From the NCBI GenBank assembly GCA_024663395.1, contig JANFAH010000019.1, positions 496,001 to 560,000 on the forward strand: DNA of 64,000 nt, written 5' to 3'. How positions within the stretch are numbered: the first letter of the stretch is position 1; each line of letters starts with the position of its first letter. The notes under the pieces were generated by a model that worked only from the letters and a program-made list of their open reading frames with translations, was not told where the DNA came from and did not search any database. This document shows positions 23,722 through 40,213 of the stretch, one piece after another. The stretch comes from Pisolithus tinctorius (lineage: Eukaryota; Basidiomycota; Agaricomycetes; Boletales; Pisolithaceae). The position numbers were made by a program, and so were the translations under genes.

Positions 23722-23859
23722 GTGAGTCTGTTCCAGACCCTTCAGTCACATGTAATCCAGAAAGTGGGTCATCTGACATGCACATTTGGTCCTGAAAGTG
23801 GGACTAACCGACGTCGGCCTATAGACCCTGATGGTGGATAGGCTGACATGTTGGAGGGA

Positions 23860-25250
23860 GGTCAGCCAACCTCACTGGGCGATGGATCCACACCCTGGAA
23901 GTGGTGTCAGCCGACCTCACTGGGGGATGGACCCACACCCTGGAAGTGGTGTCGGCCGACCTCACTGGGGGATGGATCCACACCCTGGAAGTGGTGTCGG
24001 CCGACCTCACTGGGGGATGGATCCACACCCTGGAAGTGGTGTCGGCCGACCTCACTGGGGGATGGACTCACACCCTGGAAGTGGTGTCGGCCGACCTCAC
24101 TGGGGGATGGACTCACACCCTGGAAGTGGTGTCGGCCGACCTCACTGGGGGATGGACTCACACCCTGGAAGTGGTGTCGGCCGACCTCACTGGGGGATGG
24201 ACTCACACCCTGGAAGTGGTGTCGGCCGACCTCACTGGGGGATGGACTCACACCCTGGAAGTGGTGTCGGCCGACCTCACTGGGGGATGGACTCACACCC
24301 TGGAAGTGGTGTCGGCCGACCTCACTGGGGGATGGACTCACACCCTGGAAGTGGTGTCGGCCGACCTCACTGGGGGATGGACTCACACCCTGGAAGTGGT
24401 GTCGGCCGACCTCACTGGGGGATGGACTCACACCCTGGAAGTGGTGTCGGCCGACCTCACTGGGGGATGGACTCACACCCTGGAAGTGGTGTCGGCCGAC
24501 CTCACTGGGCGATGGACTCACACCCTGGAAGTGGTGTCGGCCGACCTCACTGGGGGATGGACTCACACCCTGGAAGTGGTGTCGGCCGACCTCACTGGGG
24601 GATGGACTCACACCCTGGAAGTGGTGTCGGCCGACCTCACTGGGGGATGGACTCACACCCTGGAAGTGGTGTCGGCCGACCTCACTGGGGGATGGACGCA
24701 CACCCTGGAAGTGGTGTCGGCCGACCTCACTGGGCGATGGACGCACACCCTGGAAGTGGTGTCGGCCGACCTCACTGGGGGATGGACGCACACCCTGGAA
24801 GTGGTGTCGGCCGACCTCACTGGGCGATGGACGCACACCCTGGAAGTGGTGTCGGCCGACCTCACTGGGCGATGGACACACACCCTGGAAGTGGTGTCGG
24901 CCGACCTCACTGGGCGATGGACGCACACCCTGGAAGTGGTGTCGGCCGACCTCACTGGGCGATGGACCCACACCCTGGAAGTGGTGCCGGCCGACCTCAC
25001 TGGGCGATGGACCCACACCCTGGAAGTGGTGCCGGCCGACCTCACTGGGCGATGGACCCACACCCTGGAAGTGGTGCCGGCCAACCTCACTGGGTGATGG
25101 ATCCACACCCTGGAAGTGGTGTCGGCCGACCTCACTGGGGGATGGACCCACACCCTGGAAGTGGTGCTGGCCAACCTCACTGGGGGATGGACCCACACCC
25201 TGGAAGTGGTGTCAGCCGATTTCACTGGGGGATGGACACAGACCTCACCA
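23860..25250 (+). repeat. 45-bp minisatellite, about 30 copies, left arm of KDZ-2
   Basis: The unit contains CACACCCTGGAAGTGG, TGTCGGCCGACCTCACTGG and GGGGATGGAC. Copies are near identical, with phased variants (GGATCC, GACTCA, GACGCA, GACCCA after GATG) that cluster along the array, which suggests local expansion. Because 45 is a multiple of three, frames on both strands stay open for hundreds of codons; I do not count these as genes. The complement of the unit matches the right-arm array. Confidence 0.95.
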
Positions 25251-25532
25251 CCTGGAAGTAGGGTTGGCCAAACCCTGAAAATTCCCTTGGCATAATCAAT
25301 TGCTTGTCAATTTAGATGTTACCAGAAGTATTGACTCTGATGACACTTCCAGATGGACATACCCCCTGAGACCAGTGTTGGCCAACCTCACTGGGGGGTG
25401 GCCTTACCCCCTGAATCCATGGCCATTCTTCACCTCCAGGTGATGTCAGTGATCTCACAGGGTTTGAAACTTGCAATGAGCATGGGTAGCCATATATAGG
25501 GATCCTTTTGATTCACACCATCTACAGTTTAT

Positions 25533-27911
25533 TTATAGACCAAGACCCAGAGCTCTCTTGGTTGGTTGACGAGCTCTAGTTGATTTCTTGCTTGCCTCTT
25601 CACCCTCCTTTGCCATCTTCTGATCAACATCCCCACTGCCTCCCCTTTTTCTTTTCCTCACATCCTTTCTTGTATTCCGGGATTCCTTCATGCCACCCCC
25701 CTGGGTGGGACAGGAATCCCCTGCACTGACCCCAGTTGTTTCCTGTGCACCAATCCCTCTGCTTGAGCCACCAGAATTCTGCTGCAGTCTTGCAACTACC
25801 AGCCCCACTGCACCCATAACATCTTCCCCCTTGTGGATATCAAGACCTGAGCCTAGCAAAAAGCCCAGATTAGCAGCTTCAGGGTCATCTGATTCTATGT
25901 CCTGTGCTCTTTTGCACTCCCTCCACAACAAACCAAATCCCAGTACAATGGTAAGACCTTTTTGGGTGGATGCAAACTTTTCACTTTGCAATTGATACAG
26001 TGCCTTCCAGAAGGAATCCCCATTGCCATGCATCTCCTGGGGCAAATACTGGGCACTCCAGGCCCAAGATGCCCAGACAGGCAGGTTGACTGGTCCAGCA
26101 TCAGGTTCCTGTACAAAATGTTTGTTAACCTGGTATTTGAAGAAAGTTTATCACTTACTGTCTCTGGCAAGCCATCTACAAGCTCAACAAGTTCCTGGTA
26201 CCTGGGCATGATGCAAAGGGACTTTAAATATTTCACCCTGTCCCCATTTGCATGACAAGCAGGGCTGGATTCATGAGGGGTATCTTCAGATGGGGCCCTC
26301 CCAGAGTCAAGGATATCCTGGGCCCCTGATGAAGTTGCTATAGGGGTCATACCAGCCCCACCAATTTCTTCCCCTAAATCTGAGGGCTTGGCCTCCACCC
26401 CAGCTTCACTGTCCTCCCCAGGGCTCATCCACTCTCTCTTTTTGGATGGGGTTTTCCTGTTCCAGGGCCTTCCCAACGGCTCGTCCTCCTTTTTGCACTT
26501 GATGAATGAAACAATCACCTTATCCTCCTCCTCTTGGGAATTCCAATGATTCCAAAGCATCCACATGTCGGCCTTGGTCCATTTTGAAGGATCTTTCATC
26601 ATGAATCCTTCTGGGATGGAATCAGAACTCAGATACTCCAAATGGGACTTGATAAGCAGGCCCCAGGGAACCTTGGCCTTGGGCTTCCCTGTAAACTTTG
26701 CTATGTTTCCAACTTCCATCAACAACTGTAGATGCACTTGACAATCAAGAACATACCATAGGCAGCCTGGAAGACCATTCTTGCCAAACTCTGCTGGACC
26801 TTGAGTTTCTGACCAGTCCAAGCTGGTACCTCTGGGTTTCCTTCATCATCCAAGGCTATCTCCACCTTTGGATTCTCATCATTCAAATCTTCCTCAGCTG
26901 AGTATGGAATCAACCTAGGTACACATATTACATTGATCACCAATGTTTATCACTTACCAGCTTCAGTCAAAAGATAATTGGTTAACATTTGCTCTCCCTT
27001 TAGAACCCACTCCTTGGTGGGCTCTGAAGACTCTGAGAAGGCCTTCTTCCCATCAGGGGGTTGTGTTTCAAAGCTAGGTTTCTTCATTAGCATTGGATAG
27101 ACAAGGTAAAGGGGAACCTACACTGCCATCTTGATCTGAGAATCAGTAGTCTCATGAGCCAGAAACTCACTATATTTGACCCCATGGTCCTCCTGACTGT
27201 TTCAATAAAGTCTCTGGCCATGTTGGGAAAATTTTTTCTCCTGTACCTGAATTATTGCATGATTAGTATAAGACATTTGAAGTAGACCAGCACTGACAAT
27301 TCATGAGTTTCTTTTGGAGCTCCCAACTTATTCCACTTGGAAGCAGCCCTCCCTGCTTCAGCCTTCTTGTCATCTGCAAGAGACTCCCACCACTGTTGGA
27401 TGATTTTGGTCCTCTGACCTATGGTCTTGGGGTCCTTGGTGTCCCTCCTCTCCCTATCATAGGCATCCATGTCCTCTTTGAAGAGCTGCTGGGAGGCAGT
27501 AAAATCAGTGAAGGGTTTTCTGTAATTTCCAGCCTTGGTAGGTCTGGTCCTCTCCTCTCTGCCATCCTCATCCTCACCAGTCCCAGGCTGCTCCTTCCTC
27601 TTGTCTGTTGCAGCCAGGATGCTCTCAATGATGTGTTCCTCATCATCCTGGTCTTCAGGGTCTAGTTCTGGCAAAAACAACCCTTCTGATGGCCTAAATA
27701 CACTTGAGATATGTGAAACTTGATGAAAAAGATACCCTACCACTCTCAAGTTCTGGGGCAATTCCACAGATCCTGAAGATGCTTGCTGAAGGATCTGGGA
27801 TTTCACATCAGCCAGGATCTGGGCCCTGAGGTCAGGATTCCCTCAGGCATCTGTGTACTGCTCCACATAGGAGGACAGCAGATCAGAGTAGACTTCAGAC
27901 CAATCAGCCAT
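25533..27911 (-). pseudogene. KDZ-associated accessory protein gene, copy 2
   Basis: The reading starts at an ATG at 27,909-27,911 (MADWSEVYSDLLSSYVEQY) and runs through ADVKSQILQQASSGSVEL, an intron-separated QQWWESLADDKKAEAGRAA and KWNKLGAPKE block, NMARDFIETVRRTMG (about 27,190), a P..F...DPSKW block (about 26,590), a Ser/Glu-rich linker and a basic tail ending at 25,533 (KRALGLGL). It parallels the accessory gene of KDZ-1 (same KWN-G and DPS blocks). An in-frame TGA at 27,843-27,845 interrupts the first exon (TDA-stop-GNP), a change expected from CGA by CpG deamination. Function unknown. Confidence 0.6.
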
Positions 27912-28177
27912 GAGAGAATAAAATCAGGGGGATAATTAGCAGCACAGATGATGGAGGTTGGAAGCAAGGTGAAAATTTTTCAGCCTTTCCAATTTAGGCA
28001 GGAGGTTGAAGTTTTCGGCCCATCCACTCTTTTAGGAAAGGTACCATTATGGTATGATTGTTTTGATGTATTTGCTATTCACTTTGATTCAGATACCAAG
28101 TGCAAAGCAAGGGTAATCAGAAAACTATACACATATACCCATGTTCTAAATACAATCCATTTGTTTACCTTGGAACA

Positions 28178-31100
28178 TCAATTGGGCCTTTTGGAAAAGT
28201 CAGTCCACAACACTATCTGCTTATGAGCATAAGCCTTTTTCCCTGGTTCCAACAATTGTAGAGCCCTTTTTCTCCCATATGTCCTTCTGGAACTCAAACC
28301 ATAAGATGGCCCAAACCATCTCATGCCTCACCAATGACAATTCTTCTTTCCACCTGTCCCTTCTTGCCCTTGCTTTGAGCCAGTTGATCCTGTAAACTGC
28401 CCCACAATTTATTGGTGAGATTTTTTTGAGTAGTATTAACACTTACACTCCTCCATTAAACCCCCCTTCTCAGCATTCAGTTGACCCTGTTCACCATCCA
28501 TCATCCAAAACCATGCCATTTTGCTGGTTCCCTGCCCAAACCGGTTCTCCTCTGTAACATCCTTACTCACTGCCAGGTCCTGGGGCTGAATAGCCTGATA
28601 TTTTGTCCAATCTCTTGATTGGGTTCCAACTGGAGAATGGCCTGCCTTGCCCTCTGATAACTTCTGACCTGCTTGTTTATCCGAGCCACCACTTTTTGGA
28701 TGTCCTGCTTGGTTCTTGTACCTTCCCTAGTTGATTGTGCACTGCGGAAGTTCTGTCTGTATAACATTGCCTTGTGTCCAAGGTTGGTTCGGAGCTGGGT
28801 CTAGACAATCATTAGCTTGCCCAATCCTGAGTTCCATTTCTTCTTTGAGGAGGTCATGAAGGCCAAGCTCCATCAGTTTGGTTGCTCCAATGGATGAGGG
28901 CATCCATATACTCATGAGCTCAGCAGGTAGCTCCTCTCCTTCTTCTGTAGCCTCCCAATCCTCATCATCTTCCCAGTACTCTCCATTGTCATCAATTTCT
29001 TCACCTTGCCCAAGGAATGCTGGATCATCCTGGGGTATGAAGACATTGTCCACCTCCAAACCTTTGAGAAATGCCTGGCTGGTGCCATGGAATTTGTCAA
29101 TCCTGGCAGAAAGTCTTTTTCTTTTCTCTGAGACTTTGATTTCTTGTCTGGTAGACATGTGGCTCTGTCTAAGCTCAGATCTTAGCTGGTCCCTGCAGGT
29201 CTGGTTAGCAACCTATTGCTTCTGGAAACCACAGACCATACTGTGCATCCTCTATGCTAATTCCTTCCACAAGCCAAGCCACAGAACCATGGCTCCCTGG
29301 GGACACAGGTGGATTTTTCATGAGCTTTAACTGCACTTCACCCATGGTAGGGGCTACAGGCCATCAGACATGCCCAGGGTTTCTTAGGAACATACTGACC
29401 TTTTTCCCCTTTCAACAAATAAATGTCTAGGGAATCACCTCGATTTGCTTCTGCCTCAAGAACATCCAACTCCCATTGGGCAAGTTGGCCAGGGTCTAGA
29501 ACAGCTGTCAACTGCTCATATGCCTGATTCATTTCTTCTAGGCACTTGTGTGAGGTCTTGTATTTTTTCAACAGTGCAGGAACTGAGATGTACAGGGTAA
29601 ATTAACTTCTCTTTGAGAAAAGGTCTCTCACCCATGTTGACAATTTTTTTCCAGTTAGAATCTCTCATATGGTCATCATACACTTCTTGTCTGTGGGCCT
29701 GAGTCATAGACCTTGCAGTGGGAGAGATCTTATTGAATGGAGCCCACAATGTCTCCAAAATTTCACCATCCAGATGACCAGCACCCTTGATAAAGTTGAG
29801 GCTATATCTTGGAAAGCAAGAGAGTTTGTGGGCAGCAAGATGAAACTTCCCCACAGCAGGAATGATTTCCAGGGAGGGAGGGAGATGGAGAGAGCAGCTG
29901 GATTTTACCCGACTCTGGAAGTTAATACTCCACTGGCACCCAACATCATAAATGACAAGGGCCTTTGTGATGCTTTCTGAATGATAATCAAGAGCACTGC
30001 AGATGGAGTAATCTGTGTTCATGTACCTAGCACAAAATGAGTTCCAAAGGCTTCCAGTACATCCATCAGGTCCACTCACTTTTCCCCTTTCTGAAAGTCC
30101 ACCACAGAATGGGGAACAAAGCAACCATGCCGAGCACAGGCTGTGGCACCAATCCCAGTGGACCGGAGATTGGACTTGTTAATATTAGCAGCATTGATTG
30201 CCCTGTGATTGCTGCAGGTGGATCTCTACCAGTACAGTGGGTCATTTAAACTCCATGACCTTGGGACAACTCACCTCCTTGTTATCCAAAGACTGCTCAA
30301 GATGGGCCTGGTAGGGCTCTTCAGGAAACCATGTAACCAGTTCTATCTGATAATGACACATCCAACTCAGGCTTGTTCATTTTCATATGCTGAGCAGTGA
30401 AGTTGCCATCCATGACATATTGCCTCATTATGGTATCACTAAGGGGGGAGGGAGTTAGAAATCAAAACCCTACAGATTATCACTCCATACCTGTCATATC
30501 GGGTTTTCCAATCTGGAGGTAAATTAATACCTGGTTGTGGGCAGGCAGGACAAAAGAGTGCAAGTTCTCCTTGTCTAGGATCTTGTTCTTTATCATGACC
30601 AAAGCCAAACCATTTCCTATGTTTCAAATCCCTCCACAGTCTGGAAACCCTCATCAGCTCTCGGTACCTGTCCTAATTGGAAATGAATGCATTAATAGAA
30701 CCCCCTAAGAGCAAATAGTGCATGGCACTCAACTGGTATACAGTCAGGAAATGCATTGTTGGTGAACCTCTTCAGCTTCTGATAGAAACTCATAGCTGAA
30801 GTCTTGCATTCCAGGGCATCAATGAGAAAGTGATTAAGAACATCAAAGGTGAAAGCAGTCTTGGGCTTTGTTATACTGGCTGGAAAGAGTCTTTCCCTGA
30901 GTAAATCAAGGTGCCAGTCCATTGGATCTGACCCAGGGCAATTGCACCAAGAAATCTCATGAGTGAAAATTCCTTCTGTGTGCACTATGGTCATTTTTGA
31001 TCTGAAGGATCTCCTGCTACCAGAGGTTAACATGGAGGCTACAGGATATGACTGCCATTGACCTGTAATTGGGAGGCCCTTCCCCAGAAGTATAGCCCAA

Positions 31101-31743
31101 CTCCTCTGAGTCTGGATCCTGATTCTGTCTGTTTTGAGGGCAAGGATGACCCCCATGGCCAATGTGCCAAAGGAACCCAAGTGCCATCAAGAGGTAGCCT
31201 GGTAATGAGTAGCATTCCATCTTTGTACCTTGTGGAATGGAAGATTTTGATGCACTTCACAGCACAAGGACCACACCAGGCATGCACACCAATGCAGGAC
31301 ATGCATCTGATACTTCCTTCTGCCTGACAGCACTGCTCACATATCCCCCCCTTAGCCAGCTGCTCTCCCTTGAGAATGACTTTGAGATATTCTGCTCTCC
31401 AAGGCAGCCATTCTCTGATGAAATCATTTTGACTCTAGGGGATAATTTAGCCAATGCAGTATCAGGCAAAACTTCCCACCTTGGTAACCCTCCTAGTATT
31501 TGGGGTATCTTCCTCATCATTCCAGTCCAAGGTAGGCATGTCAAAGGAGTCTGGGACAACATTTTGGGAGCCTATTGTCCTGGGGGTCCTTGGAGTTGAA
31601 GGTTGACTCTGAGATGGGAGGTAGAGGTGTCTAGCATCCACCTCCTTGTAGGTGTCCTTTCCTCTCTGGGTTTTAGTGACTTCAAATTTATACAAACCTC
31701 CTGCAGAGCTTTTGCCAAGGACTTTGGTTCTACAATGACACAT
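28178..31743 (-). pseudogene. KDZ-family transposase, copy 2 (KDZ-2), nearly complete
   Basis: It starts at a Met at 31,743 (MCHCRTKVLGKSSAGG). Blocks in order: a CxC-like cluster (CIGVHAWCGPCAVKC, about 31,260); TAFTFDVLNHFLIDALECK and NNAFPDCIP (30,730-30,870); MRVSRLWRDLKHRKWFGFG (about 30,640); the ATACARHGCFVPHS block (about 30,120-30,160); VIYDVGCQWSINF (about 29,950); GAGHLDGEILETLWAPFNK (about 29,740); MELRIGQAND (about 28,810); and the tail INWLKARARRDRWKEELSL (about 28,350), ending at TGA 28,178-28,180. All landmark blocks of a full-length enzyme are present. One extra base near 30,321-30,330 shifts the frame in the DRTGYMV...EEPYQAHL segment, so this copy is probably inactive. Several short introns split the gene. 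Confidence 0.88.
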
Positions 31744-31887
31744 GATTGAGCACAGGAAGAGTCAAAAGCAAGGTTTTCAGCTGTATTGAAAATTTTTCAT
31801 CCCCAAAACAACACCACACAAGTCCAGAACAAGGTTATCAAATGTATTTAAAATATTTGTACCCAAAAATTGCCACTAAAATGTGTT

Positions 31888-33233
31888 TTAAGTGTATCTG
31901 ACAGCCAACCCAAGAATGTCCTTTTGGGTAGTCCATGCTGGTCTTGTGACCTTGAGTCGGTCATGTACTTTGTCCTTTATATAATGCACCAATGCAATTC
32001 TTTCTCCCTTCTCCCACTTTGGCACAGAATGTTGAAGGATTTTTCCTGATAGGAAAATCATGGTGCCTGGGGAATAAGCCAGTTCAGCCCCCAGATCTGG
32101 AATAAGGAATTTAGCATTGTGAGAACCCAGGCTCACTAATGAATCCAGAAGGGTTGGGGTGGATGTGACATCTCAGTGAGAGGGAGTTTCCTGATTGACA
32201 ATAATATCAATGTTGGTATAGACCAATGGCCAATCCAGGGATATCTCATTCTCCACCCTGCCAGCCTTGGCCAACATTGCTTGATCACCAGCCCTGGCCA
32301 TATCTGGCAATGAGACCTTTGCTATATTGCTCCAGAAGTGTTCCACATAAGAAATCTTGAGCAGCCATTCCCTATTGGCTTTCTGTTTGAGGGATGTGCT
32401 TTGATAGAGTGTATCAACCAACCTCTTTAAATTTGTCAGCCCCTACCATGGAAATCACAGCACCTGGACAAACCTCATGGGCCTGTTGGAATGTGGCAGG
32501 AGACATGGAAATCCTGCCATGTCCATACATGACTTGGTCAACAGGCTGATGCTTATGGCCATATCGTTTGTTAAGCTTGCTTTTGTCTTTTGGCTTGTTC
32601 TTGGGCTCAGTCTGAAGATTGTCTTTTATGGAAAGGAGAAGGGAATTGAGAAGTTCCTATGATATAAAAGCTGTAGTGAAGGGTTGTCAGAGAATGAAAA
32701 CACTCACTATCCATGCATCTGGGACAATACCAGGCAGATACCATACTATCACCCTGCCATGCACATCCAGAACTGTGGCAGGAGCATTGATATACCCAAT
32801 TTTTGGGTTTTCAAAATGGATGGTCCTGTCCTTGGCATGCACCAATGGTTCAGAAAACCTGTCTGCATCCCAATGCAACACATCTATTAAGGGTCAGACT
32901 TGGATCACTTGGAATTGTTGTGGAAATCACCTACAGGGATTGAGGATGGCATGTGTAATGACTGCAGATGCCAGCCTAACTTCCAAAGATGTAATAGCAT
33001 CTGAAGTTAGACCAGATTCCCCTTGCAATGTTGCCCTGACTTGGGTTAACTCAGCCAAGGATCAAAGTCTATTATCCAACTAAATACATAGCAAGTGTAG
33101 CATCACTGCTTATGGCTTACCTTGGCTTCCTGAGCTGGTGATTTGAGAAAATAGAGCTGGAAGAGATCATAGGGACTGTTCCAAAGGCAGCCTTCAGCAT
33201 TCCAACCACCATTGTATGCAGGGAATCATCCAT
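31888..33233 (-). pseudogene. TET/JBP-family dioxygenase of KDZ-2, stop codon inside the iron-binding motif
   Basis: The likely start is MDDSLHTMVVGML at 33,233. Landmarks: GRVIVWYLPGIVPDAW (about 32,720-32,770), SYVEHFWSNIAK (about 32,330), NIDIIVNQETPSH, then DLGAELAYSPGTMIFLSGKILQH and ERIALVHYIKDKVHDRL (31,950-32,100), ending at 31,888. The HxD iron-ligand pair is present (His at 32,176-32,178, Asp at 32,170-32,172), but the codon between them is TGA (32,173-32,175), consistent with a former CGA Arg. The remaining frame looks well preserved, so the gene was lost recently or reads through. The expected role is oxidation of 5-methylcytosine in DNA. It lies 145 bp upstream of the transposase start on the same strand. 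Confidence 0.75.
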
Positions 33234-33239
33234 GATGAT

Positions 33240-34500
33240 GTGGGGGGTGTTGGAAAAGTCAAAGGAAAATTTTTCAACCGTGAGAAAAATAGTTAAAAAT
33301 CACTCAGTACATAAGTTGGAAGTTATTCTCCACAAGGGACCTTGCTTGACTTGGGGGAAGATCCAGAATCCAGAAACCCAACTTAGTCTACTAGATACAC
33401 CATGTTTCTTGAAACATCTAGTCATGTAAGCAGGGGCCTGGAATGGTGCAATCAAACTCAGCAGCAGTTGAACTCCAAGTCAATCCAGTCCAGCAATCTC
33501 TTGAGCATCATGGGAAACCATGGAACACCAATACTAATCTAGCAATCTAGCAACATCCAACAGCTAGGAACACATCCAGTCAGCATTTGAAGGGAAGATG
33601 TTGGGTTGCTAGTAATGCCATTGGCAAGCTCTTGAGCATCAATGGGAAACCTTGCTTAAGAAGATCAGCCATGGAACACCAGTGCTAATCTAGCACCATC
33701 CACCAGCCAGGCAGACTGACATGAAACAATACACCAAGTCATTTGCTAAGGTTAGGGTTAGAAGGAGACTTGCATGAAGAAATACACCAAGTCTTATGCT
33801 AGGGTTAGGGTTAGCACATGCTTCATTCAAAAAAAGAAGCATAGATTCCCTCACAGCATTCAAATCCAATCAAAGCAGTGGCATTTACAAGGTCATACAT
33901 AAATTCAACTACAGTTACAATTTCAACTACAAAGGTATAATGGTTTCATAAGAAACCAAGGCTTGCCTGCATTCCAGAGGGGGCCCTCCTCCAGAAGTAC
34001 AGTTGGGCCAATAAAAACTGTCCTCAATTCAACCAAGTTCCCAAAAAAGTGCACAAAAGCTGATAACAAAGATCCTAAAAACACATTAGCATCAACACAA
34101 CTTTGCAAAGTTCACATACCTGAGGTGCACTATTTATTCACCAGGAGTCAAAGACAAACAGCTCTAGAAAGTTTATGTCAGTACAACATAGATTATACAG
34201 AAGTTGAATACTCACTACACCAAAGCCTGACCAACTAGCTACTACCAATATATACCAACACATACCACACAAAAAAATGTCATAGGCTGACCCACACAGG
34301 TGGGTACAGACCAAATAAAACATCATAAGCTGACCTACAATGTAGGTACAGACTAGCCCCCAGATCCCATGAGCTGGCCTACAATGTAGGCACAGACTAT
34401 TCCCCCAGACCCAACATATTACCCAACAACCAAAAATTGTGCTGGCCAAGCACAATCTAAGGTCAAGGGTAGCCCCTCCCTACATCCTGTAGCTGCAGAC
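33240..34500. other. Non-coding part of KDZ-2
   Basis: No gene seen. It contains loosely repeated phrases (CACCAGTGCTAATCTAGCA, TACACCAAGTC, ACAATGTAGG) and two short telomere-like runs, GGTTAGGGTTAG, near 33,750 and 33,805. CpG is scarce as in the flanking genes. Confidence 0.4.
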
Positions 34501-35690
34501 TACAGTCAATAGTGAGGCGCCAAGGATGCTGCAAAGTAACGGTAATCAAGTAATGTGAAAATTCTGGGATCAGAGGTGCCACTTACCTTATGACAGCCGA
34601 GATGACAGGCTGAGATAAAAACGAAGATGACGTAGCACAGAAAACAAGAAAGAGAGAGGGGGAAAGGGAGATGGAGATGGAGGGAGAGGGAGGACGGCGG
34701 AGGGGAAGCGTCACATCGCAGAGAAACGCAGTAAGGGAAAAAACATGCCACTGACTGGGGGGGATTTATATACTTGAGTCTTATGTACTGTTGTTTGGCC
34801 ACAGTCCAACTAGTGAGGTCGCTGTCAATGTCACATTCTCGGCCTCGGTGCATGTTCAGTTGCCGTGAGTGCCGGCAACTTCCTCTGAGTCAGTACTGCG
34901 TGTCATACTATACATCGCGAATAGCGATGTCACGTGACTCCACTGTCACCGGATTCGGCTTCTATATACTAAATACTAAATGTTCGCTTGACATTCTCGT
35001 AATTGCATTGTCGAGCCGAGCAAGCACTCCCTCGTGCCGTTGGCTGAGCGGTAGTGGTGGCTTACCCTTGGGATTTCACAGAAAATGTATTGTAGTAGCA
35101 CTACCGGATCATTTAATACATGTAGTCACTTATTGAAACTGGAAATTGGCCTAGCGGCGACGGACCACTCCGTATATAGTCCTACGTAATGTTCCAGAGA
35201 CGCATCCGAAGTACGGGTAGACACGTGTGATAATCATGACAGCCGTGATGTTGTTCATGTCACAATTAAGGTTGTGTCCAAGATTATCATAGGTCTCACT
35301 ATGTGACCTGTCCAAAATCAAGATCTGTGCATCCGAGTATCTGGATTGACATGGTCTTTTGCTCCTCTCCTCTTGCCACACAGTGTCTCCCTCACCGACT
35401 GTCGTTGCGTTATCCCACTCTCTGGCCCCGCTGCATCTCAGCGAAATTTTTGGTACGTCGTTGTCCTCTGGATCTCTCGCGCCTCTCCCTCTCTAAACAC
35501 AAAATAGGTACATCGTGCCATGTCTCCCTTCAAAAAAAAAAACAAAAAAGGTATGTTGTCAAACCTCTCATGGCTTCAACACTCACATCACACACCAGGA
35601 CGCTGCCATCCTTCTCAGTCTATTGCACGTTGTTCAGTGTCCCATACTACTCACAAAGCCCGTTCATTCAAAAAGAAGGTAAGTAGCTCG
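34500..35690. other. CpG-retaining block between the TET/JBP and H3-tail genes of KDZ-2
   Basis: Unlike the surrounding element, this block keeps many CpG sites (for example GACGGCGG, GCGTCACATCGC, TCGTGCCGTTGG). It includes a purine-rich GGAGATGGAGATGGAGG tract on the plus strand (about 34,665-34,690) and a short ATG-led lysine-rich stretch, MSPFKKKNKK, ending at a GTATGT donor (35,520-35,552). It lies between divergent genes and may hold their promoters. No complete gene was identified. Confidence 0.35.
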
Positions 35691-36560
35691 CAGCGTCCCT
35701 CTACAACTCACAAAACACCCCCCCCCTCTCGCCTTGTCTCATCCACAAAACAGGTATGTCGTCCTACTTCCCGGCGTCCCTCTACCACTCACAAAACGCC
35801 CCCCCCTCTCGCCTTGTCTCATCCACAAAACAGGTATGTCGTCCTACTTCCCGGTGTCCCTCTACCACTCACAAAACACCCCCTTGCCGTGCTTATCCAA
35901 AAAAAAGGTATGTCGTCCCAACTTCGCGGCGTCCCTCTACAACTCACAGAACACCCCCTCGCCGTGCCTTATCAAAAAAACAAAAGGTAAGTCGTCCCAG
36001 GTCGTGGCATCCCTCTACCACTCACAGAACACCCCCTCGCCGTGCTCATCCAAAAAAAAAGGTATGTCGTCCCAGCTTCGTGGCATCCCTCTACAACTCA
36101 CAGAACACCCCCTCGCTGTGCCTTATCCAAAAAAAAGGTACATCGTCCCAGCTCGCGCAGCGTCCCTCTACAACTCACAAAACACCCACAGACCACCCCC
36201 TCGCCGTGCTCATCCAAAAAAAAAGGTGTGTTGTCCCAGCTTCACGGCGTCCCTCTACAACTCACAGAACACTCCCTCGCCATGCTCATCCAAAAAAAAA
36301 GGTATGTCATCCCAGCTTCGTGGCGTCCCTCTACAACTCACAGAACACCCCCTCACCGTGCCTTATCAAAAAAAAAAGGTATGTCATCCCAGGTCGTGGC
36401 ATCCCTCTACCACTCACAGAACACCCCCTTGCTGTGTCTCATCCTACAAAAGGTATGTTGTCCCAGTTCCTGGTGTCCCTGTACCACTCACAAAACACAC
36501 TAGTAGGCTATCAATTCATATCTCCCTCCTGCCACACTGCATCTCCCTTGCTGTGTCTCA
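35690..36560 (+). repeat. Array of 74-87-bp repeats, each with a splice-donor-like and acceptor-like site
   Basis: About eleven copies of a unit made of an A-run, GGTATGTCGTCCCAG, TTCGTGGCGTCCCTC, TACAACTCACAG and AACACCCCCTCGCCGTG. Each A-run/GGTATGT junction resembles a 5' splice site and each CTCACAG an acceptor. Frames remain open by chance, but unit lengths are not multiples of three and the readings do not agree between copies. It lies upstream of the H3-tail gene and on the same strand. Confidence 0.8.
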
Positions 36561-36863
36561 TCCAATAAGGTATGTTGTTGCACTTCTACTTCATGGTGTC
36601 CAGATGATACTTACATATCACCCTCTTTGGTCTGCTTATCCAGTGCCCAGTGTTGTGTAGTTGCATACATTGGCTTGTCTTTTCCATAAATATGTAGATA
36701 TCTATCCCTGCTGCATGATATATGTACTAAACTAAATGCATTTATTGTTATCTTACTGCTTGTCCCCTACACCTTCTGTGTCTTGTAAAGATAATAAGGT
36801 ATGCTACTGTTCCCTTCTGTGTCATGTTGCTGCCACTCACTAATGTTGGCATAATACACTCAG

Positions 36864-38451
36864 ATGGTGAAGACCAAGCAGACAGCTAAGAAGACCACTG
36901 GGGGTAGAGCTCCCAGGGTATCTCTTGCTGGTCTGAAAGCTAGGGAAAAACATGCTGCCAAGTCAAGCAAGGCCCATGCTAGGAAGGCCCCTGTTGCCAA
37001 GAAGAGAAGGATGAGGAACTTGGCAAGTCTCTTTTTATATTCCATCCATCTTTCTAACATTCTATGCAGTTCTGTGTGATGTGCAGGGATGGAGGGACAT
37101 TGTGGCCTTGTGATCAGGCAGGATGCAGAAGGGTAGTGTGTAACAAGTGTGTTGTAGTACCTGAGGATTGCCTTGCAGAGGTCACCCAGCTTCCTGTGAC
37201 CTTCAGGTGTGTTAACCTCCCTTTTATGAATTAATTCCATTGACTCAAACTCTGGATGAACTTCAGGTGTGTTGCCTGTCATTGGAAAATGACAAGATTT
37301 GAAAGTCCTCAGCCCTATTTTGTAAGTGCATATTGCCACCCCAATCACTTCTAACTCCAAGTACAGGGCTTCTACTTGTCAGGCAAGCCAGTCCTGAAAC
37401 ACCCTCTTGTGGTCATTGGGGGGTTTGAGCATGCCACCACCTCTGAAGTGGCTGGTAACTCTACTGCCATTATCCACCTCCACCTTGAGTCTCTAGAGCT
37501 TGGCCATGCCCCTGTGCATATCCTTCACACCATGTTGCAGGGATATTTCAGACAAGACACCTACCACTTCTCACAACTGCCCTTCAACTTTGCCACTGAG
37601 GAGTCCAGAGCTGCCTATGACACTGCAGCATCAAAGCTAGCTTCAAGTCTGACTACCTTTGCTAAGGTAGTCATTTTCCTTACTACCCATACTGATGAAG
37701 ACAGGGGGGATCTGTTCTCTGGAATGGAGAATAAGGTTCCAATAGCCACAGAGGTCTTTGAGGTAAGTCACCATTGTTTGACTGTCACTCCCATCTGACC
37801 AGTTGCAGTTTCTGCAAGGCCTTCTGTTACCCCTCTCCAACATTGTCAAGGGTGGAGACCTCATCTTCTTTGTATGTGGTTCTACTGTAAGGAAGGAGCA
37901 GAGCTTCCAAGGACTGAAGGCAGCTGTGCAACAGTAGGTTTTCTTTCAATGTTGGTGGTTATGGCTGACACCATATCAGTTTCAAGCCAAGGTCCATGTT
38001 GCTTTTTGATGCTGAGAGACTTCAACTAGTCACCACCATTCCCTTCCTCATGAGTGTCCTTGACTCCACCCTTGTTCAAGGCTTCCATGTCCAAAGTGCA
38101 GTCAGGTATGCCCTGAATGACTGTGGTATGTTGGGTAGGCACTCCAACATCATCCTGATGTTGTGGCAGGAGAAGGTAGTGGTGGAGAAATTTGTCTGGA
38201 CTGACAAGTTCATCAGGCCTTGGGGACAACAATTGCCTGCCCAGTGCCCTCAGTGTTATAGCATTCAGAAGTGGGAAGCTGGTTGTTCAGGGCAGACTTA
38301 TTCCTATGAGTGCAAGAATCCTGGCTGTGGGAAGGACACACAAGGCACATCTCAGCCTCCCCAAACCTATACTATCTGCATGTCCAAAGGGGCTACCAAA
38401 CTGACACAGGGAAAGGGGCAAACATCATCCTGGCTGTTGGAATCTTTGTAA
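36864..38451 (+). CDS. Histone H3-tail mimic with PHD-like zinc cluster, KDZ-2 cargo
   Basis: Six exons (36,864-37,022; 37,070-37,206; 37,267-37,321; 37,367-37,762; 37,809-37,933; 37,980-38,451) join into 447 open codons, with GT-AG introns except a GC-AG first intron. Directly after the Met, residues 1-17 read VKTKQTAKKTTGGRAPR: 12 of 17 identical to the histone H3 tail, with K4 and K9 kept, R2 and R8 to Lys, S10 to Thr and K14 to Arg. A basic Lys/Ala linker follows to residue 50. Then comes an eight-Cys cluster (FCVMCRDGG, CDQAGC, CNKC, CVACHW; residues 55-105) resembling a PHD finger. The middle holds an unrecognised domain (DLIFFVCGSTVRKEQ; LLFDAERLQLVTTIPF). The C-terminus has a second Cys group (CPQC...C...C..PGCG). 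No lesion was seen. The function is inferred to be chromatin binding or mimicry; the exon model is unaided. Confidence 0.75.
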
Positions 38452-38819
38452 AATACCCTACCTTGATACATATGATATGCATGTACTACAATCAAAAATA
38501 GCTGCTTTGTGTTTTCAAATTTCATATGACATTGAATGTTCAGAAAAAAAAGTAATTTCCTGCAGGACAATTCCTCCTTAAGTACTGATACACAACTGAG
38601 TAAATTTGCCCAATGTTAATTCCAATACAATGGCCAGATTGGTAGAGTTAACTTCAATACCACAGGATAAGGATAGGATATAGGATTTTTCCACAACCAT
38701 GTGGGTTCAGCCAGCTAACTACCAAGGAAGTAGTGTACTGAGTAATAAGATTGGCCAGCCCCACTAACCCACTAGCAAGATATTGGTCTTTCTTGCAAAG
38801 TGTCTGCCCAACCACAACT

Positions 38820-40065
38820 CCAGGTCATGGTTCATTCCCCCCAGCCACATCAGCTGACCCCACTGCCAGGACATCATCCCTTCCCCCAGCCATGTCAGCT
38901 GGCCCCACTTCCAGGTCACTAATCTATCCCATAGCTGGTTTGGCCAACCCCACTTCCAGGTCACTAACCTATCCCATAGCTGTGTCAGCTGACACCACTT
39001 CCAGGTCACTAATTCATCCCATAGCTGTGTTGGCCAACCCCACTTCCAGGTCACTAATCTATCCCATAGCTGTGTTGGCTGACCCCACTTCCAGGTCACT
39101 AATTCATCCCATAGCTGTGTTGGCCAACCCCACTTCCAGGTCACTAATCTATCCCATAGCTGTGTTGGCTGACCCCACTTCTAGGTCACTAATTCATCTC
39201 ATAGCTGGGTCGGCCGACCCCACTTCTAGGACACTAATCTATCCCATAGCTGTGTCAGCTGACCCCACTTCCAGGACACTAACCTATCCCATAGCTGCAT
39301 TGGCCGACCCCACTTCTAGGACACGAATCTATCTCATAGCTGTGTCGGCCGACCCCACTTCTAGGACACTAATCTATCTCATAGCTGCATCAGCCAACCC
39401 CACTTCTAGGGCACTAATTCATCCCATAGCTGCATTGGCCGACCCCACTTCTAGGGCACTAATTCATCCCATAGCTGTGTCGGCCGACCCCACTTCCAGG
39501 ACACTAACCTATCCCATAGCTGCATCAGCTGACCCCACTTCTAGGACACTAATCTATCTCATAGCTGCATCGGCCGACCCCACTTCTAGGACACTAATCT
39601 ATCTCATAGCTGCATCGGCCGACCCCACTTCTAGGACACTAATCTATCTCATAGCTGCGTCGGCCAACCCCACTTCTAGGACACTAATCTATCTCATAGC
39701 TGTGTCGGCCGACCCCACTTCTAGGGCACTAATTCATCCCATAGCTGTGTCGGCCGACCCCACTTCCAGGACACTAACCTATCCCATAGCTGCATCAGCC
39801 GACCCCACTTCTAGGACACTAATCTATCTCATAGCTGTGTCGGCCGACCCCACTTCTAGGACACTAATTCATCCCATAGCTGTGTTGGCCAACCCCACTT
39901 CCAGGACACTAATTCATCCCATAGCTGCATCAGCCGACCTCACTTCCAGGTCATCAATCCATCCTATAGTCATGTCAGCCAACCCCACTTCCAGGGAAGT
40001 TGATCCATCATCCTGTGACATAGGCCGACCCCACCTTCACAGTCCAGCCTACCCAACCCTAGGGA
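38820..40065 (+). repeat. 45-bp minisatellite, about 27 copies, right arm of KDZ-2
   Basis: The unit reads GTCGGCCGACCCCACTTC plus TAGGACACTAATC and TATCCCATAGCT. Its complement aligns with the left-arm unit through the GTCGGCCGAC core and CCACTTCCAGG, so the two arrays are inverted homologues that have drifted apart as separate arrays. Long open frames here (about 450 codons) are a product of the repetition. Confidence 0.95.
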
Positions 40066-40213
40066 CCACCAGCCGATGTCGGTTAGTCCCAGTTTCAGGA
40101 TGAAATGTACATGTCGGATGACCCACTTTTAGGACTACAAGTGACTGAATCATGTGTCTGTTCACACATAGAAACATGGCCGATGCGACTGTCTGACTCA
40201 CCATAAACAATAG

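Follow-up and report, generated by a model that had tools for sequence, protein, structure and literature searches.

Does a fungal DNA transposon encode a protein that poses as the amino-terminal tail of histone H3, and what might the element gain by it? The question is raised by a gene in a 64,000-nucleotide stretch of Pisolithus tinctorius DNA (contig JANFAH010000019.1, positions 496,001 to 560,000; hereafter the window), whose predicted product opens with an H3-like sequence followed by a cysteine-rich finger. Known cases of histone mimicry come mostly from viruses. An answer depends on whether the gene truly belongs to the element, on which residues of the tail have been kept by its relatives, and on what the remainder of the chain may do.

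A KDZ element and the gene it carries

The gene lies within a KDZ transposon whose borders were set by comparing copies and by its ends (Table 1), and the matches to PF18758 and PF18803 bear out an initial claim, made in a first-pass annotation of this DNA, that the gene is transposon-borne. The same annotation had called the element otherwise decayed, a description that no longer holds, since the window copy has its two ends inside a perfect 7-bp duplication and, in seven of nine other copies, the sequence to the left of the gene matches it at 97–99%. This comparison, extended leftward from the gene in each of the nine, located the left end in seven; the repeat-rich right part aligns at 94–97%, and copies C17b and C10 show additional stretches at 86–92%. 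The ends (CAGACC and CATGTG) are of the CA..TG type, and identical 7-bp flanks also enclose four of the six other copies with both ends visible. The KDZ piece of the window is an open frame, and in seven other copies the same frame differs by one gap and three stops in five, carries eight stops in one, and has none in one. A TET/JBP stretch, which the first-pass annotation had not included, is recognised by a PF12851 match on 31888–32172 with an E-value of 1.9e-4 and a score of 21.1 bits, below the Pfam cut-off of 34.9; its frame contains one stop in the window copy and is open in seven of nine other copies. The founding paper on KDZ elements and TET genes is said to be that of Iyer et al. 2014.

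Two further observations concern the body of the element. Blocks of tandem repeats of ~45 bp lie near both ends (23861–25244 and about 38850–39995), their length varying between copies, and more open frames of the element occupy the minus strand at 25533–27842. Two of these frames were scanned and gave no Pfam match; part of this sequence appears to have been fused into a P. orientalis gene model (P0078).

Table 1. Features of the element and of the H3-tail gene in the window
Feature	Position	Strand	Basis
KDZ (Kyakuja-type) DNA transposon, 16,423 bp	23734..40156		copy comparison and ends
Left target-site duplication TCTGTTC	23727..23733		identical to right flank
Right target-site duplication TCTGTTC	40157..40163		identical to left flank
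Left imperfect terminal inverted repeat	23734..23787	+	44 of 54 bases match right end
Right imperfect terminal inverted repeat	40103..40156	-	pairs with left end
KDZ transposase piece (PF18758)	29516..30175	-	E 2.3e-28
CxC2 cysteine cluster of transposase (PF18803)	30692..31186	-	E 5.3e-24
TET/JBP dioxygenase stretch, one stop in window copy	31888..32442	-	weak PF12851 match
Gene of the H3-tail / PHD / caspase-like protein (447 aa), six exons	36864..38451	+	joined exons
H3-tail copy, residues 2–18	36867..36917	+	12/17 identical to H3; family conservation
PHD-type finger, about residues 54–108, intron 37207–37266	37070..37294	+	profile match to H3-reading PHD fingers
CHAT/caspase-like domain, about residues 141–365, two introns	37436..38202	+	relatives' models and fold searches
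His225, putative catalytic	37688..37690	+	30/30 members
Cys272, putative catalytic	37875..37877	+	30/30 members
C-terminal part, CPxC-type cysteine cluster (zinc ribbon-like, by eye)	38203..38448	+	C380 28/30, C383 27/30

The six-exon model, annotated from the start as open over 447 codons, was confirmed on the sequence: from the ATG at 36864 the exons (36864–37022, 37070–37206, 37267–37321, 37367–37762, 37809–37933, 37980–38451) join to 447 codons and a stop, separated by introns of 45–60 nt of which the first is GC-AG and the rest GT-AG. The predicted start agrees with the family, in which 129 of 143 tails follow immediately on a Met, and the longer gene models of P. orientalis place a repeat-derived leader ahead of this same Met. 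Several relatives (for example P0001 and P0002) have false leader exons in their models that derive from an array of repeats ahead of the gene (about 35690–36500). One relative, P0025 (source labelled lgn), is an unbroken 494-residue frame on a contig of 1,705 bases, where the window gene has five introns; it looks like spliced RNA, while falling short of proof.

Within its own genome the first 437 bases of the gene recur at 97–100% identity in at least 40 places. Four of these (L015, L016, L020, L027) are element copies on different contigs with a common right flank, so that some of the 40 must be duplicated DNA or duplicate assembly and not separate insertions. Linkage to KDZ sequences, proposed as a check in the first-pass annotation, was followed in this one genome, and it stands for the near-identical copies: 35 of 40 scored places have CxC2, and 35 have TET, on the other strand and no more than 30 kb upstream (CxC2 at 5.8–8.1 kb in 28 places, TET at 4.6–6.4 kb in 29), and five have neither within that distance among the matches listed. 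It weakens among 11 further places of the gene, where, among the matches listed, both are found at three (C42, C3, C20) and neither at eight, and it is seen at only one (C42) of the seven diverged places (about 51–56% protein identity), again among the matches listed. At C42, whose copy has about 55% protein identity, CxC2 (82% DNA identity) and TET (75% over 179 bases) keep the same layout, and the association of gene and element is thus older than the recent burst. Elsewhere, at C1:631092–632488 of genome G000, a diverged pair of TET and CxC2 from the same type of element has no H3-mimic gene nearby among the matches listed, and is possibly an element without this gene.

How strongly the gene is maintained bears on whether it is of use to the element. 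Comparison of 21 copies gave 45 nonsynonymous changes over 1,038 sites and 22 synonymous changes over 303 sites, a ratio of about 0.6 from copies too young to decide the matter, and the first 18 codons hold one synonymous and one nonsynonymous variant. This weak constraint, together with the stop found in three of 20 other copies, is what speaks for a captured passenger, that is, a host-derived gene carried on the element to no benefit of the latter. Such an origin of the pattern is nevertheless quite improbable, as 14 of the 20 copies are free of stops, gaps and insertions when compared with the window gene, and both the architecture and the tail persist in three genera at 20–30% overall identity.

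An H3-like amino terminus kept between genera

The resemblance to H3 begins directly after the initiator Met, where 12 of 17 residues equal H3 ARTKQTARKSTGGKAPR. This count, already given in the first-pass annotation, was confirmed and exceeds all shuffles of the rest of exon 1, which reached at most 10 of 17 in 200,000 trials and at most 9 in 500,000. The window tail departs from H3 at A1, R2, R8, S10 and K14, departures that count against its being a decoy. Searched alone against PDB sequences, the window protein matches H3 best (E 0.0024), and a profile built from 51 family members matches H3 at 1.2e-8; Pfam gave no histone match for the window protein, nor among the families listed for the 51 members. 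Chance resemblance is rejected in view of the shuffles, these profile matches, and conservation between genera.

The wide family to which the protein belongs, absent from the first-pass annotation, was assembled from protein searches that returned 183 proteins, of which six with histone domains were set aside, leaving 177 relatives (178 with the window). Where a source is named it is Pisolithus, Suillus, Rhizopogon, Mycena or Stygiomarasmius, the others being metagenome proteins, and a scan with P0021 gave no viral relatives. A tail of at least 9/17 is present in 143 of the 178 (window included), a threshold on which the per-site counts are conditioned. Among these 143 tails, K4 is kept in 137 (96%), K9 in 140 (98%) and G12 in 141 (99%), followed by T6 and A15 (129 each), P16 (124) and R17 (119), while R8 (51, with K in 84), S10 (55) and K14 (39, or 27%) vary. 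Many relatives lie nearer to H3 than the window copy does, among them P0049 MARTKQTARKVTGGKAPR at 16/17. Removal of the initiator Met is permitted by A, V, T or P in the next position, but not by D. In the 129 tails directly preceded by Met, the next residue is A in 78, V in 38, T in 7, P in 5 and D in 1, a small residue as required for Met removal in all but one of them, so that this removal would expose an H3-like amino end.

The high content of Lys and Arg in exon 1 (34%) lends some colour to a plainer account, in which a basic stretch for nuclear import or DNA binding came to look like H3 by chance. This reading is disfavoured and very improbable: it leaves unexplained why K4, K9 and G12 are kept while R8 and K14 vary, why the family profile finds H3 at the E-value given above, and why the small residue follows Met in 128 of 129 tails. 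In an alignment of 30 hand-picked full-length members with tail, no other region is as well conserved from genus to genus as the tail, with a mean identity of 0.58–0.61 as compared with 0.14–0.20 for the linker, 0.32–0.38 for the finger, 0.22–0.26 for the caspase-like part and 0.21–0.38 for the C-terminus.

A less conditioned figure is obtained by starting from the finger, for 71 of the 80 proteins with its first six cysteines carry the tail at 9/17 or better. Relatives without an H3-like start had been named at the outset as what would speak against the claim, and on this point the family came out in its favour. Among the nine that lack the tail, four models begin at the finger or up to 13 residues from it, two begin at a Met inside the tail, one scores 7/17, and one scores 8/17 inside a fused model, leaving P0110 as the only one with neither an H3-like start nor an evident fault in its model. 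Variants of the arrangement also occur: in three Mycena proteins (P0164, P0168, P0169) an insert splits the tail into MARTKVTAR and KSTGGKAPR, hinting at two separately read halves, and in Stygiomarasmius P0176 the H3-like stretch is internal, at residue 43, and not N-terminal.

A finger of reader type and a caspase-like domain

The PHD-like finger reported after the tail is real. Its eight cysteines, in PHD spacing, are spread over exons 2 and 3, and in 22 aligned finger stretches six cysteine columns are invariant or nearly so, as is, nearly, the last pair. The fifth zinc ligand, usually His in PHD fingers, is here an invariant Cys (C26 of alignment A4). Pfam's PHD model matches weakly in eight of 51 members (best E 9.6e-4). 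A profile of the 22 stretches run against 177,635 PDB sequences placed CHD4 first (E 1.9e-9), then SP140 (7.8e-8), PHF21A/BHC80 (1.4e-7), AIRE (2.6e-7) and ATRX (8.3e-7), and both SP140 and ATRX are readers of H3. In the excerpted text of PMC3471955, BHC80, AIRE-PHD1, CHD4 and TRIM24 form a group that reads H3 when K4 is unmodified. By sequence, the finger is thus predicted to belong to the H3K4me0-reading class.

Tail and finger are both parts suited to chromatin recognition, and a transposase is encoded by the same element. They might accordingly steer transposition, the tail by recruiting readers of K4/K9 methylation or the finger by binding H3, so that excision or insertion sites are chosen by their chromatin. 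This we consider improbable, since the gene is separate from the transposase and since such targeting leaves the caspase-like domain and its conserved His and Cys without explanation.

That domain, half of the protein and missing from the first-pass annotation, was recognised by fold searches with two predicted models of relatives, not of the spliced window protein, in which a caspase/CHAT-like fold is matched at 8–12% sequence identity (SAVED-CHAT 8tl0, MALT1, caspases). The putative catalytic pair is identical in every aligned member (Table 1), and in the P0021 model strands 219–225 and 268–272 precede H227 and C274, the equivalents of window H225 and C272. Up to E 0.1, 51 members of the family matched 19 Pfam families, of which CHAT is not one; for the Mycena model no Foldseek match fell below 1e-3, and KaiC appeared among the caspases in its list. 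On these models, the domain is probably a protease, with the pair as its putative active site.

The predicted models also bear on the state of the tail. Residues 11–30 are placed with pLDDT of about 72–85 in both, which show a strand near residue 18 and a helix that starts at residue 21, so that this half of the tail may not be freely exposed, and the modelled confidence favours some packing in cis. A protease gated by H3 would make use of such packing: the tail would be a built-in ligand or pseudosubstrate held, in cis or in a dimer, in the chain's own PHD finger or protease groove, until displaced by nucleosomal H3, upon which an H3-clipping protease is switched on. The presence of reader and ligand in one chain and the placement of these residues in both models accord with this, which we regard as a possible but rather unlikely arrangement. 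A K4me0 reader needs about residues 1–6 of H3. Yet K9, G12 and A15–R17 are as well kept as the site such a reader would use, and the linker is poorly conserved (14–20%). Cleavage of H3 tails as such has precedent in other proteases (among others those in the excerpts of PMC3938757).

Proposed role and known systems

The conservation specific to K4 and K9, the small residue after Met and the reader of H3K4me0 class together point to the H3 tail as an object of recognition and away from a merely basic stretch. A protein that joins the tail copy, the finger and the caspase-like fold suggests that the element interferes with the chromatin marks by which it is silenced. Our preferred reading, held tentatively and at a little less than even confidence, is of an anti-silencing protein encoded by a TET+ Kyakuja-type transposon and combining decoy, reader and probable protease. 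Once Met is removed, the tail would pose as H3 and draw host writers, erasers or readers of K4/K9; the finger would put the protein on nucleosomes with unmethylated H3K4; and the caspase-like domain could cut H3 tails or such silencing proteins as the bait attracts. DNA methylation would meanwhile be the target of TET/JBP, leaving the histone side of silencing to the H3-mimic protein. A sharper version of this anti-silencing role, more speculative and with the chances clearly against it, joins bait to blade: host silencing enzymes or readers would dock on a free K4/K9 tail as they would on a nucleosome and be destroyed, or neighbouring H3 tails destroyed, by the caspase-like protease. If this were true, the element would hold with TET/JBP a two-armed kit for wiping both DNA methylation and histone marks off itself. 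The suggestion in the first-pass annotation that a protein showing and perhaps reading an H3 tail could shield the element or draw off H3K4/K9 enzymes is borne out in part, namely as regards the conserved N-terminal mimic, the PHD finger of H3-reader type that shares its chain, and the location on a KDZ element.

That a transposon-borne family has retained a long H3 tail at the N-terminus in several fungal genera, with K4 and K9 almost invariant and K14 variable, amounts to a natural mutagenesis experiment on the H3 residues needed by the silencing machinery. Next to their DNA-demethylase gene, TET+ Kyakuja would have a partner on the histone side, and the escape of these elements from silencing becomes directly testable in culturable mushrooms. 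As judged from the models, the caspase-like proteins also gain a family that has no name yet and has ties to chromatin.

By its sequence, the window element fits the published TET+ Kyakuja. These elements of Agaricomycetes have 7-bp duplications and CA..TG ends, and in Boletales TET+ elements are Kyakuja only (Kojima 2025, PMC12730594, here and below as excerpted); the window element, likewise from Boletales, shares with them the KDZ transposase, the 7-bp duplication and the CA..TG ends, and has the TET/JBP match below the Pfam cut-off. Two Laccaria Kyakuja families are described as being without terminal inverted repeats, which is not stated as a general rule (PMC12730594), and the ends of the window element match at 44 of 54 bases. 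For TET/JBP on these elements a role against DNA methylation has been proposed, described by Kojima as experimentally unvalidated, and the excerpted text contains no H3-mimic protein, leaving PHD and zinc finger unmentioned and speaking of histones in general terms (PMC12730594). Comparable too are the anti-silencing regulators encoded by Vandal elements of plant MuDR and the SET-domain genes on HarbingerS and MuDR, also element-encoded and acting on epigenetic control; their domains differ from those of the window protein, and no histone-tail copy is mentioned for them in that text (PMC12730594).

As to the separate parts of the chain, the PHD fingers of BHC80, AIRE, CHD4 and SP140 and the ADD domain of ATRX are the best profile matches to the window finger, which differs in its Cys fifth ligand. 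The likeness to CHAT/caspase peptidases (SAVED-CHAT 8tl0, MALT1, caspases) is one of fold in two models and of a His-Cys pair after core strands, at the low identity given above and with no Pfam CHAT match. A literature search returned, among the matches listed, no H3-tail mimic encoded by a fungal transposon, and an earlier mention is possible. Viral histone mimics are short motifs. The ARKS of SARS-CoV-2 ORF8, a mimicry that is disputed (PMC10833455), is likewise a selfish agent's copy of part of the H3 tail, as described in the excerpts of PMC10208167 and PMC10833455. The window protein, in contrast, carries its copy on a transposon and over 17 residues at the N-terminus, in one chain with a reader and a protease-like domain.
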